A DNA stretch of 45,864 nt, taken from Phycisphaerae bacterium. Lineage in GTDB: Bacteria; Planctomycetota; Phycisphaerae; Phycisphaerales; SM1A02. Both the position numbers and the translations under genes were made by a program. The notes beneath the pieces were generated by a model. That model did not search any database and was not told the origin of the DNA. It was given only the letters and a program-made list of their open reading frames with translations. The DNA is taken from NCBI GenBank assembly GCA_016873315.1, contig VGXL01000007.1, forward strand, positions 1 through 45,864. The letters are read 5' to 3'. This document shows positions 32,189-38,138 of the stretch, piece after piece; within the stretch, counting starts at the first letter, position 1; each line of letters opens with the position of its first letter.

Positions 32189-32300
32189 ATTCAGGTTCCG
32201 TCGGCCGGCACTGCCAGCCCAAGGACGTCACGCCTCACGATTCAGCATCAACGCACGGATTGCACGGTTCCAGCAGCGCACGGACGCAAGGTACGAAGCT

Positions 32301-35300
32301 ATGAAGATCAATCGACGATTCACGGACGGCAAGCGCGATGTGTTCAGCACCATCGAGTGGACCACGCGCACCAGCAAGATTCACAATGCCGACGGGTCGG
32401 TCGTGTTCGAGATGAACGACGCCGAGATCCCAAAGGAGTGGAGCCAGCTCGCCACCGACATCGTGGTCAGCAAGTACTTCCGCAAGGCTGGCGTTCCCCA
32501 GTTCGACCTAGACGGCGTCCCGGTCGTGAAGGACGGCAAGCCGGTGTTCGGCCCTGAGAAGAGCGCGCGCCAAGTGGTGCACCGCCTCGCAGGTTGCTGG
32601 GCGCATTGGGGCCAAGAGCACGGCTACTTCGACTCCGCCGAGGATGCGCAGGCCTTCTACGACGAACTCAGCTACATGCTGATCACGCAGATGGCTGCTC
32701 CCAACAGCCCGCAGTGGTTCAACACTGGCCTGAACTGGGCGTATGGCATCAACAGCCCGGCCCAGGGCCACTGGGTCGCCGACCACCTCACCGGCGCGCT
32801 GTCGCTGGCGAAAGATGCGTACACGCACCCGCAGCCCCACGCGTGCTTCATTCAGTCGGTCAGCGATGACCTGGTCAATGAAGGTGGCATCATGGACCTG
32901 TGGGTCCGCGAGGCTCGCCTGTTCAAGTATGGCTCCGGCACCGGCACCAACTTCAGCCGACTGCGCGGCGAAAACGAGCCGCTCTCTGGCGGCGGTCGCA
33001 GCTCAGGCCTGATGAGCTTCCTCAAGATCGGCGACCGTGCCGCGGGCGCGATCAAGTCCGGCGGCACCACGCGCCGTGCGGCCAAGATGGTCTGCCTCGA
33101 TGTCGATCACCCGGACATCGAAGCGTTCGTCAACTGGAAGGTCCGCGAAGAAGTCAAGGTCGCCGCGCTCGCCGAGGGCATGAAGCACCTGGCCAAGGAC
33201 CAGCAGGATCTGGCCAAGGGCATGGGCCTGAAGCTCGACTACGACTTCAACGGCGAGGCTTACGCCACCGTCAGTGGCCAGAACTCGAACAACTCCATTC
33301 GCTTGTCGGATGCGTTCTTCGATGCCGTGGATGCCGACGCCGACTGGTCGCTCACGCGTCGCATGGATGGCAAGGCAGCCAAGACGCTGAAGGCGTCCTC
33401 GCTGTGGAACCAGATCTGCTACGCCGCATGGCGCTGTGCCGACCCAGGCCTGCAGTACGACACCACCATCAACTCGTGGCACACCTGCCCCGAGGGCGGG
33501 CGCATCAACGCCAGCAATCCGTGCAGCGAGTACATGTTCCTCGACAACACGGCCTGCAATCTGGCGTCGATCAACTTGATGAAGTTCTACGACGCCGAGT
33601 CCAGGACCTTCGACATCGCTGGCTTCGAACACGCGATCGATGTCTGGACGATGGTCCTTGAAATCAGCGTGCTCATGGCGAGCTTCCCCAGCCGCGAGAT
33701 CGCTGAACTCAGCTGGAAGTACCGCACGCTCGGTCTGGGCTACGCCAACCTCGGCGCCATGCTGATGCAGGCGGGCATTCCGTACGACAGCGACGAGGGT
33801 CGCGCGATCTGCGGCGCGATCACCTCGATCATGACCGGTCGCTCATACGCCACCAGCGCCCGCATGGCCGGTGAACACGGCGCCTTCGCTGGCTACCAGG
33901 AGAACCGCGAGCACATGCTGCGCGTCATGCGCAACCACCGCGCCGCCGCGCACGGCGCTGCGCGTGACTCGGGCACCTACGAGCAGCTCCGCATCGCGCC
34001 GGTCCCCATCGATCATGCGCTCTTCCGCAGCGGCCGCATCAATGTGGCCAACGCCGAAGCCATGCTCGCGGCATCGAGCGCCGCGTGGGATCTGGCCCTC
34101 GAACTAGGCACCGAGCACGGGTTCCGCAATGCGCAGGTCACAGTGATCGCCCCCACGGGCACGATCGGACTGCTCATGGATTGCGATACCACCGGTGTCG
34201 AACCGGACTTCGCGCTCACCAAGTTCAAGAAGCTCGCCGGCGGCGGTTACTTCAAGATCGCGAACCAGTCGCTGCGCCCGGCGCTGCGGTCGCTCGGTTA
34301 CACGAACGCGCAAACCGACGACATCGTCGCGTCTGTCATGGGCACTCTGAGCCTCGATGTACCGATGGCCGACGAGCGCGGCACGATCTCGGCGAGCCAG
34401 CCCTCGTTCCGATCGTTCTTGATCGAGGCCGGCTTCACCAATGAAGAACTCATCGCCCTCGAAAATGGTTTGCCGTCGTGCTTTGAGATCGGCTTCGCGT
34501 TCACGGCGTGGAGCATGCCCGAGCGCGTGCTGCGGAAGGCCGGCGTCGACGCTGAGCGCGCCAAAGCCGACCAGGGCTTCAACGGCCTGCGATCACTTGG
34601 CCTGAATCGTCGCCAGATCGATGCACTCAACCGCGTCATCTGCGGAACGGGCACGATCGAAGGCGCACCGCACCTGAAGGATGCGCACCTGCCGGTCTTC
34701 GACTGCGCCAACAAGTGTGGCGCCCTTGGCAAGCGATTCATCGCCGCCGAGGGACACATCCGCATGATGGCCGCTGCCCAGCCATTCATCTCGGGCGCCA
34801 TCTCGAAGACGATCAACCTCCCCAACGAGGCGAGCGCCGACGAGATCGGCAAGGCGTACCGCCTGTCCTGGGAACTTGGACTCAAGGCCAACGCCCTCTA
34901 TCGCGACGGCTGCAAGCTGAGCCAGCCGCTGGCGACCAAGAGCGATGCGGCCGATCATGCCGAGGAAGCCGACCTCGATGGCCTGCCCGAAGAGGCCAAG
35001 GTCCCGTCGGCCGATGGGCAGCCGCTGATCATCGAGCGCGTCGTCGAGCGCATCGTCGAACGCGTCATCGAACGCCCGTCGCGCCGTCGACTCAGCGACA
35101 CGCGCCAGAGCATCACGCACAAGTTCAATGTCGCTGGCCACGAGGGCTACCTCGTCGTCGGCCTCTACGAAGACGGCATGCCCGGCGAGCTCTTCATCAC
35201 GATGGCCAAGGAAGGTTCGACCATCGGTGGTCTGATGGACTCGCTCGGCACGGCCATCAGCGTCGCTCTGCAGTACGGCGTGCCGCTGCAGAGCTTGGTG

Positions 35301-35870
35301 AACAAGTTCGCGCACCAGCGCTTCGAACCCATGGGCATGACGCAGAACCGCGACATTCCCATCGCGAAGAGTCTCGTGGACTACATCTTCCGTTGGATGG
35401 GCATGGAGTTCATCCAGGGTTACCGTGAACAGAACGCCCCGCACCGCACCGGCATGGATGCCGGCTCCCACGCTCCCGCCTTGGCTGGCGGCGCGCGGGA
35501 TCACGTCAAGGAGGACTCATGGAACGACCGGACTGCACCGTCGCACGCTTCCCGCGCCCCGGGCCACACCGCTTCGAGCGATCTAACTCTGGGCGATCGG
35601 ATCAACGGGACGACCTTCAACGGGACGAGTGGCATGTCCGATTCGTCGGCCTGCTGCGATGGGGATTCCGGCTCGTGCAAACACGCCGCATCGCCCGCTG
35701 GGAGCGTGACGAACTCGAACGGCGCGAGAATGATGACCAACGCGCTCGACGCCCAGGCCGCGTCCGCCATGGGTGATGCCCCTCCGTGCAGCGTGTGCGG
35801 TGCGATCACCGTACGCAACGGCACCTGCTACCGATGTTTCAACTGCGGCGCCAGCCAGGGCTGCAGCTGA
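32301..35870 (+). CDS. nrdJ: Class II (B12-dependent) ribonucleotide reductase
   Basis: Reduces ribonucleotides with adenosylcobalamin as radical source, without need for oxygen. The 1189 residues match large single-chain NrdJ. The redox cysteines are Cys182 (HACFIQSV) and Cys419 (DNTACNLASINL); the active-site N-x-C-x-E is Asn406, Cys408, Glu410 (NPCSEYMF); VIAPTGTIGLLMDCDTTGVEPDF is the second barrel motif. A charged repeat of V-E-R-I type lies near residues 910-925, followed by KFNVAGHEGYLVVGLYEDG. The C-terminus has a cysteine cluster (CSVCGA, GTCYRCFNCGASQGCS) typical of the thioredoxin-facing tail. A 9-bp hairpin and a double terminator follow. It implies cobalamin synthesis or uptake in the cell. 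Confidence 0.96.
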   Translation: MKINRRFTDGKRDVFSTIEWTTRTSKIHNADGSVVFEMNDAEIPKEWSQLATDIVVSKYFRKAGVPQFDLDGVPVVKDGKPVFGPEKSARQVVHRLAGCWAHWGQEHGYFDSAEDAQAFYDELSYMLITQMAAPNSPQWFNTGLNWAYGINSPAQGHWVADHLTGALSLAKDAYTHPQPHACFIQSVSDDLVNEGGIMDLWVREARLFKYGSGTGTNFSRLRGENEPLSGGGRSSGLMSFLKIGDRAAGAIKSGGTTRRAAKMVCLDVDHPDIEAFVNWKVREEVKVAALAEGMKHLAKDQQDLAKGMGLKLDYDFNGEAYATVSGQNSNNSIRLSDAFFDAVDADADWSLTRRMDGKAAKTLKASSLWNQICYAAWRCADPGLQYDTTINSWHTCPEGGRINASNPCSEYMFLDNTACNLASINLMKFYDAESRTFDIAGFEHAIDVWTMVLEISVLMASFPSREIAELSWKYRTLGLGYANLGAMLMQAGIPYDSDEGRAICGAITSIMTGRSYATSARMAGEHGAFAGYQENREHMLRVMRNHRAAAHGAARDSGTYEQLRIAPVPIDHALFRSGRINVANAEAMLAASSAAWDLALELGTEHGFRNAQVTVIAPTGTIGLLMDCDTTGVEPDFALTKFKKLAGGGYFKIANQSLRPALRSLGYTNAQTDDIVASVMGTLSLDVPMADERGTISASQPSFRSFLIEAGFTNEELIALENGLPSCFEIGFAFTAWSMPERVLRKAGVDAERAKADQGFNGLRSLGLNRRQIDALNRVICGTGTIEGAPHLKDAHLPVFDCANKCGALGKRFIAAEGHIRMMAAAQPFISGAISKTINLPNEASADEIGKAYRLSWELGLKANALYRDGCKLSQPLATKSDAADHAEEADLDGLPEEAKVPSADGQPLIIERVVERIVERVIERPSRRRLSDTRQSITHKFNVAGHEGYLVVGLYEDGMPGELFITMAKEGSTIGGLMDSLGTAISVALQYGVPLQSLVNKFAHQRFEPMGMTQNRDIPIAKSLVDYIFRWMGMEFIQGYREQNAPHRTGMDAGSHAPALAGGARDHVKEDSWNDRTAPSHASRAPGHTASSDLTLGDRINGTTFNGTSGMSDSSACCDGDSGSCKHAASPAGSVTNSNGARMMTNALDAQAASAMGDAPPCSVCGAITVRNGTCYRCFNCGASQGCS

Positions 35871-35880
35871 TCGAACCACC

Positions 35881-35903
35881 GGTGACCGGTCGTTCCGGTC
35901 ACC
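35881..35903 (+). repeat. Perfect 9-bp hairpin just after nrdJ
   Basis: GGTGACCGG (35881-35889) and CCGGTCACC (35895-35903) pair around TCGTT, 10 bases after the nrdJ stop. There is no T tract. It may stabilise the mRNA 3' end or begin a structured region. Confidence 0.7.
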
Positions 35904-35929
35904 ACCAACCATGCTGGGCGCATCGCTCC

Positions 35930-36125
35930 GACGACGCCCGGCAGACAGCGATGGGGGCAGTTGCCCCAAGGAGACCAAGCGGTCGGCAAAGAACGGATCC
36001 TCTAAGCACTGGTCAGACAAGCACGGAACGGTGGCGTCTGACCCCCTGAGCGGGCTCATCCCCGAGCAGGTGTGGCCGTCCTCGGAGGCACTCCCCCATC
36101 GCACTTGCCACAACCCAGGGCCGCA
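35930..36125 (+). ncRNA. Candidate structured RNA between nrdJ and its terminator
   Basis: About 195 bases without a convincing gene can fold into a closed structure. A perfect 10-bp stem joins GCGATGGGGG (35948-35957) to CCCCCATCGC (36093-36102), 135 bases apart, with GGCA (35940-35943) and TGCC (36106-36109) extending it outward. Inside are GGTCAGAC (36011-36018) with GTCTGACC (36036-36043), GACC/GGTC around 35972-35983, and GCTC/GAGC around 36055-36068. A strong terminator follows at 36142. Size and closed-rod layout recall 6S RNA, but I cannot assign a class; it could also be a 3' untranslated element of nrdJ. I see no tmRNA, SRP or RNase P core motifs. Confidence 0.35.
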
Positions 36126-36141
36126 GGGCCCTGTTCCTCCC

Positions 36142-36179
36142 GGCCCGCCGCAGACCCACCAGCTGCGGCGGGCCCTTTT
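36142..36179 (+). terminator. Intrinsic terminator 1 after nrdJ
   Basis: A perfect 12-bp stem, GGCCCGCCGCAG (36142-36153) with CTGCGGCGGGCC (36163-36174), a 9-base loop and a CTTTT tail. This is a textbook rho-independent terminator. Confidence 0.9.
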
Positions 36180-36272
36180 CATCCCACAGCCGTCATCTCG
36201 CCCGTCCGATTGGCCCGCGCTGCGGCGGGCCCTTTTCATCCCACAGCCGTCATCTCGCCCGTCCGATTGGCC
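36162..36272 (+). repeat. Tandem 54-bp duplication containing a terminator arm
   Basis: Bases 36162-36215 recur identically at 36219-36272, a period of 57 with a 3-base spacer. Each copy begins with the 3' arm and T tail of the terminator. Confidence 0.9.
36212..36236 (+). terminator. Intrinsic terminator 2, created by the duplication
   Basis: GGCCCGC (36212-36218) pairs with GCGGGCC (36225-36231) around a 6-base loop, followed by CTTTT. The 5' arm comes from the end of repeat copy 1 plus the spacer, the 3' arm from copy 2. Confidence 0.75.
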
Positions 36273-36309
36273 TCCTCATTCCAACTGCGAGGCGATTCTC
36301 GCCCCGCGC

Positions 36310-36315
36310 TAGACT
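36310..36315 (+). promoter_or_regulatory. TAGACT -10 box
   Basis: TAGACT ends 12 bases before the ATG at 36328, downstream of both terminators, so this gene appears to start a new transcript. Confidence 0.4.
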
Positions 36316-36327
36316 TCCGAAACCCCT

Positions 36328-37017
36328 ATGACGATCACCACTCGACTGCAGCCGCGCTACCGCCTTTGGATGCTGCTCTACACGATCCTCTGCCTGGTCT
36401 TCGGGGCCTGGGGCGCGTACGACTATTGGGTCAAGTACCCCGCGCTCGAGGCCTCGGCGCGCGACTACACGCGCCTCAAGAATCGCCAGGACGAGCTCAC
36501 GACCGCCTCGCAGGGGCGCGCGCTCACCGAAGACGAAACCAAGGAGTACGAGGCAGCCAAGGCCCGACTGACCACCGAGTTCGCCGAACCACCGACCCCG
36601 CCGTCGGGATTCGACAAGCCGTTCCAGCTCTGGGGCTATGTGATTGGCTGCGGGCTCGTCGGCTTCCCTTGGTGCGCGTGGCTGCTCATCGGTGCCGCGC
36701 GGAAGCGGTGGACCTTGCACGAGGACGGCTCACTCGACACGCCCGAGGGCACGATCGCTGCCGAACGCATCGCCGACATCGACATGTCCAAGTGGATGAG
36801 CAAGTCGATCGCCACGGTGATAGACGAAGAGGGTCGGCGGTATCCACTTGATGACTACAAGTGGAAGAACACCGACTTGATCGTCGTTGAACTCTGCCGC
36901 CGCTTCCACCCGGGCGAATGGACCGACAAGGCGCGGCCCGTCAACGAGGACAGGGACGGCGACGACAGCACCAGCGGCCTGACCAAGGAGGCTCCGACGA
37001 GGGAGCTGTCGGAATGA
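36328..37017 (+). CDS. Two-helix membrane protein of unknown function
   Basis: I do not recognise the family. The 229-residue protein has membrane helices at about 13-34 (LWMLLYTILCLVFGAWGAYDYW) and 101-122 (LWGYVIGCGLVGFPWCAWLLIG). Between them is a charged, probably helical segment (about 40-90). The part after the second helix (RKRWTLHEDGSLDTPEGTIAAERIADIDMSKWMSKSIATVIDEEGRRYPLDDYKWKN in order) looks like a small beta-rich PH-like domain, and the C-terminus is acidic and likely disordered. Its stop overlaps the start of the B12/MeaB fusion gene (ATGA). Confidence 0.65.
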   Translation: MTITTRLQPRYRLWMLLYTILCLVFGAWGAYDYWVKYPALEASARDYTRLKNRQDELTTASQGRALTEDETKEYEAAKARLTTEFAEPPTPPSGFDKPFQLWGYVIGCGLVGFPWCAWLLIGAARKRWTLHEDGSLDTPEGTIAAERIADIDMSKWMSKSIATVIDEEGRRYPLDDYKWKNTDLIVVELCRRFHPGEWTDKARPVNEDRDGDDSTSGLTKEAPTRELSE

Positions 37018-38138
37018 GCGTTCGGACACTTCAGGATCCCACGAGCGCCATCGAGAAGCGCGACCGATGCAGCGACCTTCCGCACCGCCCCCGTGTGCTG
37101 CTCGGCAAGTTGGGGTTGGATGGACACGACCGCGGCGTGAAGTTGATTGCGCGCGTGCTTCGCGACGCGGGCGTGCATGTGATCTACAGCGGACTCTGGC
37201 AAACCCCGCGCAGCCTCGCGATCGGAGCGCGCGACGAAGACGCTGATGTCATCGCCTGCAGCATGATGAGCAATTCCCACTTGGTGCTCGTGCCAAGGTT
37301 GATCGAGGAGTGCCGCGCGCTCGGACGCCCGGACATGCCCATCAATGTCGGCGGCATCCTTCCGCAGGAAGATGTTCCGACGCTGCTGTCCGCGGGCGTT
37401 CGTCGCATCTACCACACTGGAACTGGCATGGAGGAGATCGTGCAGAGCGTGCGCGAGTGCGTTCGTGCGTACGCGCCGCTCCAATCGCACTCGCCTCACG
37501 CCATCCTTGCTCGACAGATCAGCCTGGCGCACGCCGGTTCGCTCACCCCGGGGACTGCGCTCCGTCGCCCCGCGCGCGTGGTGGGCATCACGGGTTCGCC
37601 CGGCGCGGGGAAGAGCACGCTCGTCGCGGCCTTGGCCGCTGAAGCCGTTCGTCGTGGCGAGCGCGTGGCCGTCGTGGCGTTTGATCCCATGAGCCCGATC
37701 ACCGGTGGCGCGCTGCTGGGCGATCGCTTGCGCGTGGACTTCAACATCGTCGACGAGAAGGTCTTCTACCGAAGCCTGGCCATCGTCGGCGAGGATTACC
37801 GAAGCTTGCCGCAGATCACGGGGCTCGTCGGTGCGGCGGGGTTCGACACCTTGATCGTTGAGACCGTCGGCGCCGGTCAAAACGATGTCGCCATCCGAGA
37901 GCATGTGGACCGCACAGCGGTCGTCGTCGTGCCGGGCATGGGCGATGCAGTCCAGATGGACAAGGCAGGCATCCTGGAGATCGCTGATCTCTTCGTGGCC
38001 AACAAGGCCGATCACGCCGGCGAAGCGAAACTGGTCCGTGAACTACTCGACATCGCGTCGGGGCGTCGGATCCTGGAAACGATCGCGACGCAGGGCAAGG
38101 GCATCGTCGAACTCTACGAGGCGTTGCTTGCCGCGTGA
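37014..38138 (+). CDS. Fusion of B12-binding domain and MeaB/ArgK-type GTPase
   Basis: A 374-residue two-domain protein. Residues 27-155 are a cobalamin-binding domain of the methylmalonyl-CoA mutase type: VLLGKLGLDGHDRGVKLIARVL carries D-x-H-x-x-G with axial-ligand His38, followed by YSGLWQTP. Residues 185-374 are a MeaB-type G3E GTPase: Walker A GITGSPGAGKST (191-202), AFDPMSPITGGALLGDRLR, VETVGAGQND and NKAD. MeaB proteins protect and load B12 mutases. The order B12 domain then G domain equals the N-terminal half of IcmF, but no mutase domain follows and none is in the window. It would need a separate mutase subunit. It is translationally coupled to the gene upstream. Confidence 0.85.
   Translation: MSVRTLQDPTSAIEKRDRCSDLPHRPRVLLGKLGLDGHDRGVKLIARVLRDAGVHVIYSGLWQTPRSLAIGARDEDADVIACSMMSNSHLVLVPRLIEECRALGRPDMPINVGGILPQEDVPTLLSAGVRRIYHTGTGMEEIVQSVRECVRAYAPLQSHSPHAILARQISLAHAGSLTPGTALRRPARVVGITGSPGAGKSTLVAALAAEAVRRGERVAVVAFDPMSPITGGALLGDRLRVDFNIVDEKVFYRSLAIVGEDYRSLPQITGLVGAAGFDTLIVETVGAGQNDVAIREHVDRTAVVVVPGMGDAVQMDKAGILEIADLFVANKADHAGEAKLVRELLDIASGRRILETIATQGKGIVELYEALLAA

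Follow-up and report, generated by a model that had tools for sequence, protein, structure and literature searches.

A conserved structured RNA behind nrdJ in Phycisphaerales presents paired A-N-GGA loops and is a candidate CsrA-binding RNA

Introduction

What lies between nrdJ and the terminator behind it in the genome of a planctomycete? The DNA analysed here, referred to as the window, is a stretch of 45,864 nt from Phycisphaerae bacterium (SM1A02; assembly GCA_016873315.1, contig VGXL01000007.1, forward strand). A sequence-only reading had proposed a new structured RNA at this place, either 6S-like, processed from the nrdJ transcript or acting as a 3′ untranslated regulator. The nrdJ RNA motif, a possible cis regulator, shares the association with nrdJ, yet it lies upstream of the gene, whereas the RNA described here lies downstream and no Rfam match (release 15, gathering cut-off) was found in the window.

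Results

The nrdJ 3′ UTR contains a multi-branched fold followed by a terminator

The features of the locus, in window coordinates, are as follows.

32301-35870, plus strand: nrdJ, adenosylcobalamin-dependent (class II) ribonucleotide reductase, whose 3′ UTR houses the RNA (NCBIfam TIGR02504 and NF005122, above cut-off)
35881-35903, plus strand: 9-bp hairpin right behind the nrdJ stop codon, GGTGACCGG/CCGGTCACC (formed in the 3′ UTR fold)
35912-35943, plus strand: P0 hairpin, stem 35912-35919/35936-35943 (3′ UTR fold; flank-shuffle test)
35926-35931, plus strand: CTCCGA, conserved motif of the P0 loop (63 of 76 distinct homologues)
35948-35957, plus strand: 5′ arm of the closing stem P1 (fold; complementarity kept in other genera despite changes)
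35968-35972, plus strand: third A-N-GGA (AAGGA), lineage-specific (homologue comparison)
35980-35984, plus strand: P2 5′ arm CGGTC, partner 36074-36078, the weakest helix (partner motif GTGRCC in 43 of 76 distinct homologues)
35986-36007, plus strand: P3 hairpin (compensatory changes in 2 of 7 pairs; 89.3% of cells paired, 76 distinct homologues)
35993-35997, plus strand: A-N-GGA site 1, ACGGA, P3 loop (GGA 76/76, A 75/76)
36011-36043, plus strand: P4 hairpin (compensatory changes in every pair, all 8 of the lower stem and all 3 of the upper)
36023-36027, plus strand: A-N-GGA site 2, ACGGA, P4 loop, 30 nt past site 1 (GGA 76/76, A 75/76)
36045-36070, plus strand: P5, variable hairpin (fold and homologue comparison)
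36093-36102, plus strand: 3′ arm of P1 (basis as for the 5′ arm)
36117-36132, plus strand: small hairpin ahead of the terminator (3′ UTR fold)
36142-36179, plus strand: intrinsic terminator with a 12-bp stem, CCCACC within the loop and a T run (G+C-rich hairpin in the fold)

The sequence-only reading started from two 10-base complementary arms (35948-35957, GCGATGGGGG; 36093-36102, CCCCCATCGC) and an 8-bp hairpin stem (36011-36018/36036-36043, in P4). Both lie exactly at the positions claimed and both stems belong to the minimum-energy fold, whereas P2 is absent from the minimum-energy fold of the window 3′ UTR. The proposed extension of the long stem by GGCA/TGCC is doubtful, because the longer fold places GGCA (35940-35943) in P0. 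The overall shape is multi-branched. The stretch 35930-36125 has a folding energy of -88.4 kcal/mol (z -2.69), with none of 200 shuffles equally stable, and the 3′ UTR as a whole (35871-36182) reaches a z of -5.61, with none of 100 shuffles equally stable. The claim that the structure exceeds chance does not hold through the long stem alone; it holds mainly through the conservation and covariation described below. In the hairpin behind the stop codon, four relatives of the genus have G-C at pair 35885/35899, where the window has A-T.

The terminator claimed downstream is present as a G+C-rich hairpin with a T run at 36142-36179, although a simple terminator scan reports only a second copy at 36212-36231. 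A 54-base repeat with 100% identity (36162-36215 and 36219-36272) includes the 3′ half of the terminator, and some relatives have a second terminator copy too. A scan of 35700-36340 finds no sigma-70-like promoter, and co-transcription of the RNA with nrdJ is therefore likely.

Beyond the window, 13 other nrdJ loci give nothing but two tRNAs at the Rfam gathering cut-off. At E ≤ 10 the region has 11 scores and 16 homologous loci have 8, all below cut-off. In these searches none of the Rfam families CsrB, CsrC, RsmX, RsmY and RsmZ scores above its gathering cut-off; the sole rsmX score (24.5 bits against a cut-off of 56) falls on the opposite strand of locus L049. A divergent 6S RNA, or another known housekeeping RNA, would share the long closing stem and the single genomic copy, but the scores of the region are far below threshold and none is 6S, RF00013 has no covariance-model match in the window, the fold is multi-branched, and both tmRNA and a weak 6S candidate sit elsewhere in the genome. 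The 6S-like part of the earlier interpretation thus fell away and such an identity has next to no probability, whereas the structured-RNA and 3′ UTR parts stood. A tmRNA in disguise was also considered and was rejected, as tmRNA was found elsewhere in the genome. The weak 6S candidate (G000:C102:277-461, L031) scores 29 bits, below cut-off, and is found in 7 of the 9 genus genomes searched.

The RNA is near-invariant within the genus

Seven of eight same-genus genomes searched carry the region at 97-98% identity, one of them (G002) only partly, at a contig end; in the eighth, G005, the genome search did not find the region. All 50-nt bins over 35900-36149 are 92-100% identical in the seven relatives wherever sequence exists, while the bins at the nrdJ end lie mostly at 80-98% and drop as low as 52% in places. 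Alignments of the downstream gene give 81-83%, its bins ranging from about 62 to 92% where aligned. Bin 36150-36199 is down to 78-88% identity, which collapses past 36200. Since an untranslated stretch is near-invariant and its flanks are variable, the RNA looks like a target of purifying selection in the genus, as judged from sequence comparison.

Covariance models recover the RNA behind nrdJ across the family

The genus alignment served to build model R1, which matched 32 of 151 family genomes (E ≤ 0.1), and in all 30 loci fetched the nrdJ C-terminus lies upstream on the same strand, a position that was no part of the search. Row 30 of alignment A2, an antisense self-match, was removed by hand. 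Because the MAFFT alignments A3-A7 misplaced P1 or the 3′ end, model R2 was limited to the 69-position P3-P4 core, with 16 sequences, near-duplicates and two misaligned rows of genus g56 (L059, L062) being excluded. In this seed 9 of 18 pairs show compensatory changes; the covariation score is reached by none of 500 shuffles and the pair-type count by 75 of 500. At E ≤ 0.1, R2 matched 99 of the 151 family genomes, which represent 34 of the family's 45 genera, with a single copy in the window genome. We accepted 96 of these genomes: in 94, nrdJ precedes the RNA on the same strand, and two are contig-end cases (175 and 191 nt of contig left); the best matches of G081 and G022 (not by nrdJ) and of G091 (locus not fetched) stay outside this set, and 32 genera remain. 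Six of 102 loci had been set aside before counting: three from other families (L109-L111), L112 from the sister family f2, and two not by nrdJ (L177, L182). The core begins 69-552 nt past the nrdJ stop (median 147.5; 92 loci with an aligned nrdJ C-terminus, including L112). In three of the 94 (L103, L137, L142), the nrdJ alignment stops short of the C-terminus and an in-frame stop lies 402-579 nt before the core.

Over 97 homologues (76 distinct), 13 of 18 pairs show compensatory changes, a count reached by 1 of 500 shuffles, 88.9% of cells are paired against 79.0% when shuffled, and the covariation score is 0.384 against 0.214 (reached by none of 500), in an alignment that was fitted to the model and is therefore biased towards it. 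All slid controls of the test are far lower. The absence of covarying pairs would have spoken against the sequence-only proposal; such pairs were found, and conservation and covariation together support a new structured RNA in the stretch from nrdJ to the terminator. We conclude that this conserved structured RNA is real and that its covariation is strong.

P0 and P1 lie outside R2. Of 76 distinct homologues, 63 have CTCCGA, likewise outside the search model, no more than 110 nt 5′ of the core, and a stem of at least 6 bp encloses it in 90% of these 63 versus 15% with shuffled flanks. For P1, the best P1-like helix has at least 9 bp in 75% of the 76 versus 22% with the 3′ flank shuffled. Some elements vary by lineage: the third A-N-GGA position reads AAGGA, ATGGA or ACGGA in homologues from genera g1, g6, g3 and g16 and is missing in g59, and in g56 P5 is bigger and is accompanied by an additional A-N-GGA hairpin.

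An aptamer-like domain, then a terminator, then an open reading frame is also the arrangement expected of a riboswitch or attenuator for the downstream gene (36328-37017). That gene, however, is not beside the RNA in any of the eight fetched g59 loci, nor in L052, L053 or L056, while nrdJ stays; given these changing neighbours we reject this highly improbable assignment. Also downstream of nrdJ and the RNA, 36918-38138 encodes a predicted protein with a methylmalonyl-CoA-mutase C-terminal domain and a MeaB-type GTPase region (below cut-off). The best fit is processing from the nrdJ transcript or a 3′ untranslated regulator, the other two options of the sequence-only reading, given that nrdJ precedes the RNA in the same orientation in 94 of 96 loci, the downstream gene varies and no promoter was found. 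As in 3′ UTR-derived small RNAs, the RNA lies on the same strand downstream of an mRNA and is followed by a terminator, the last being shown for the window.

P3 and P4 present conserved A-N-GGA loops with a free N

The key feature of the RNA, which the sequence-only reading had not picked up, is its paired A-N-GGA loops. The P3 loop contains A-N-GGA in 95 of 96 family sequences and the P4 loop likewise, so that two of 96 cores have lost the motif in one loop. Among the well-filled columns of the 76 distinct homologues, only one C of the P3 stem and the two GGA triplets are fully invariant, whereas the N position is free (P3: U47, C17, A12; P4: C41, A16, U10, G9). In 73 of 75 distinct family cores the two sites lie 28-35 nt from each other (median 30). 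Folding predicts a median unpaired probability of 0.88 for the GGA of either loop, compared with 0.33 for 448 other GGA, with just 75% of the P3 cases and 87% of the P4 cases above 0.5; the loop GGA are thus accessible according to the folding model. According to PMC7652899 and PMC4005645, a CsrA/RsmE site reads A(N)GGAX, where N and X may vary, and is at its best when a stem presents it as a hexaloop; the former adds that one CsrA dimer can bridge sites 10-63 nt apart, a range that includes the spacing seen here. The P3 loop is larger than such an ideal hexaloop.

The RNA could instead have another job, as a small RNA pairing through its CUCCGA loop or as an aptamer, with the GGA loops engaged in tertiary contacts or meeting ribosomes. 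The presence of CTCCGA in 63 of 76 homologues and the strong conservation outside the loops speak for such a role; N, however, takes four letters in P4 and three in P3, so that neither steady pairing of the GGA loops with UCCG nor long anti-Shine-Dalgarno pairing fits, and family loci without a genome-wide match to the model retain ANGGA, some of it in hairpins (see below). We consider this explanation quite unlikely. Loop-loop pairing between the P0 CUCCGA and GGA was favoured while N appeared to be mostly C or U, and was dropped once A and G proved frequent.

A-N-GGA sites persist behind nrdJ in genomes without a genome-wide model match

Because the homologues were found with models containing these letters, part of the loop invariance, and of the ANGGA excess in group A of the counts below, is built in; that this bias is the whole cause is unlikely, given the free N, the loci of f2-f4 and a model-free test. 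The model-free sample consisted of 26 genomes picked from the 52 family genomes without a genome-wide R2 match; 24 had an nrdJ match, which was only weak and partial in G031 and G104, none was found in G005 and G083, and 22 full 3′ UTRs were obtained. An unfiltered R2 search of these 22 loci gives nine weak matches (10.6-20.7 bits), five of them 64-243 nt past the nrdJ stop. The 22 UTRs have 4.41 ANGGA per 300 nt versus 1.80 in dinucleotide shuffles, with at least two in every one. Per kb, they contain 14.7 ANGGA in sense, 6.2 in antisense and 3.7 in the remainder of the loci; for ANGGA in hairpins the values are 4.7, 0.76 and 0.44. Simple hairpin loops hold 31 of the 97 ANGGA, CGCCG(AUGGAA)CGGCG being a strong example. 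Behind nrdJ, ANGGA sites are thus retained while the scaffold changes. At the 3′ end of many of these UTRs (L239-L260), a CU-rich stretch (e.g. CTTCTCTTCCCTCCCCC) is followed by a terminator-like hairpin with a CCCACC loop.

After exclusion of loci without 300 nt or an nrdJ C-terminus, the four groups counted for ANGGA comprised 68 of 75, 22 of 22, 31 of 32 and 39 of 44 loci, the third overlapping the first two in several genomes. ANGGA per kb in the three Phycisphaerales groups is 9.7-14.7 in sense, 3.6-6.2 in antisense and 3.2-3.7 in the remainder of the loci. Named nrdJ loci with planctomycete titles, whose genomes are partly shared, have 2.90 ANGGA versus 1.48 when shuffled, whereas 39 control nrdJ loci, placed in other phyla by their record titles and mostly titled Bacteroidetes or Peribacteria/Peregrinibacteria, show no excess (1.26 versus 1.36). 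Among 30 letter permutations, ANGGA ranks first in hairpin loops in the three groups, by a slim margin in two of them (32 versus 29, 31 versus 28), and 11th in the control. In the window, three ANGGA follow nrdJ compared with a mean of 1.17 for other genes, which is above the mean and not the highest value.

In a search beyond the family, R2 matched 28 of 392 genomes of the phylum at E ≤ 0.1. Nine of these belong to the family, and among the remaining 19 only L112 of the sister family f2 adjoins nrdJ. Matches at E ≤ 1 occur in 33 of 100 f2 genomes, with 5 of 30 loci examined lying by nrdJ, one of which (L191) lacks the second A-N-GGA site. Among 80 named nrdJ loci, the nine with an R2 match at E ≤ 0.001 all belong to close relatives (L269-L279). 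A further 30 nrdJ loci, picked regardless of the RNA, represent five other families within the order. A P3 signature with A-N-GGA follows nrdJ in 1 of 1 locus of f3, 4 of 4 of f4, 1 of 14 of f2, 0 of 5 of f5 and 0 of 6 of f6. Observed and shuffled ANGGA per 300 nt are 4.0 and 1.1 in f3, 3.5 and 1.44 in f4, 3.2 and 1.34 in f5, 2.17 and 1.43 in f6, and 1.5 and 1.16 in f2 (a small excess, n = 14), and simple hairpins contain 1, 0, 0, 2 and 7 ANGGA in f3, f4, f5, f6 and f2, respectively. Pieces taken from loci of f4 and f3 show no more folding stability than shuffles (z 0.21 and -0.35).

The window genome encodes a divergent CsrA

A csrA gene (PF02599) is present in 148 of 151 family genomes; being near universal, the gene is of no use as a discriminating test. 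A single CsrA, of a divergent type, is encoded in the window genome; it keeps V-H-R at R44 and has I at the position of E. coli L4. As in the Csr/Rsm class, at least two A-N-GGA in hairpin loops thus occur together with a CsrA with R44 in the same genome. The family has two CsrA types (L183-L190), one canonical and one divergent with a four-residue insertion; among six genomes examined, only the divergent type was found in the window genome, g2 (a genome 55% complete), g6 and g59.

Discussion

The conserved fold, its covariation, the link to nrdJ, the conservation of A-N-GGA with a free N and the presence of csrA are observed. Building on these, we propose that the nrdJ 3′ UTR RNA binds CsrA in the manner of Csr/Rsm RNAs, with a probability of roughly 0.7. 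In the proposed mechanism, the nrdJ 3′ UTR would encode a structured RNA of roughly 230-260 nt ending at the intrinsic terminator, in which P1 closes a scaffold that bears P3 and P4 at a distance of some 30 nt, each presenting an A-N-GGA loop. A single CsrA dimer may occupy both loops at once, and the RNA, either freed from the nrdJ mRNA, perhaps as a separate small RNA, or still part of it, would tie up CsrA. Transcription of nrdJ would then lower CsrA activity and couple nrdJ expression to the CsrA regulon. Several observations sit less easily with CsrA titration. Two or three sites are few beside the 22 GGA given for CsrB in the cited part of PMC7652899; the scaffold is conserved beyond the needs of a plain sponge, with the CTCCGA of the P0 loop unaccounted for; the P3 loop exceeds hexaloop size and two of 96 cores lack A-N-GGA in one loop; and outside the family the f2 excess is weak, f4 and f5 have no ANGGA in simple hairpins, and the f3 and f4 pieces fold like shuffles.

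Alternatively, CsrA might bind in cis, the 3′ UTR element stabilising, destabilising or holding back the nrdJ mRNA and leaving other CsrA targets unaffected, which we judge rather unlikely. Such a role would suit the constant position of the RNA behind nrdJ and the lack of a promoter, and the nrdJ leaders of the window and of two genus relatives contain A-N-GGA near the start codon (32221-32225, 32255-32259 and 32280-32284 in the window, two of them kept in both relatives). These leader sites are, however, not conserved: of 20 relatives, 12 have at least one A-N-GGA in the 130-nt leader, several at the expected ribosome-binding site, and eight have none, and a conserved CsrA site in the nrdJ leader is accordingly not supported. 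The strong terminator and the P1 closure would suit a separate RNA as well.

As a CsrA-binding RNA, it would work like a Csr/Rsm RNA while standing outside every Rfam Csr/Rsm family tested. It shares with CsrB/CsrC and RsmX/RsmY/RsmZ several A-N-GGA in hairpin loops and a partner protein in the genome; unlike them, it lies in the nrdJ 3′ UTR, carries its two sites, in most family genomes, on a branched scaffold that is conserved, and belongs to a different phylum. A small number of CsrA sites is also found in RrA, RrB and RrF of E. coli and in McaS. For RrB, PMC8144298 reports five GGA, of which two fall in predicted loops, co-transcription with a longer RNA and in vitro binding to CsrA, and McaS is reported as a CsrA antagonist in the portion cited of PMC7652899. 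We saw no sequence relation to these RNAs, and the present RNA, by contrast, is kept across about 32 genera beside a metabolic gene. It resembles the 3′ UTR-derived small RNAs reviewed in PMC9438474 in sitting in an mRNA 3′ UTR with a terminator at its end; those described in the cited part of that article, however, pair with mRNA or sponge small RNAs, and none there is a CsrA sponge. A 2021 review (PMC7821165, in the part cited) states that CsrA contacts far fewer 3′ UTRs than Hfq/ProQ and that any role there is not known. Among the literature matches listed, titles and abstract openings mention no CsrA partner RNA in Planctomycetota and no RNA after nrdJ.

More tentatively, at slightly less than even odds, the nrdJ 3′ UTR may be a main CsrA antagonist of Phycisphaerales, an old RNA whose A-N-GGA hairpins were kept while the scaffold was rebuilt by lineage, linking DNA-precursor synthesis to global post-transcriptional control. 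The proposed CsrA-type RNA would be family-wide, probably wider, and fixed behind one gene, and it offers a concrete case for whether a metabolic mRNA steers CsrA through its own 3′ UTR. If CsrA binding and titration hold true, Planctomycetota would have a Csr RNA in the form of a CsrA sponge encoded in a 3′ UTR, and the supply of DNA precursors may be tied to the global control switch CsrA.
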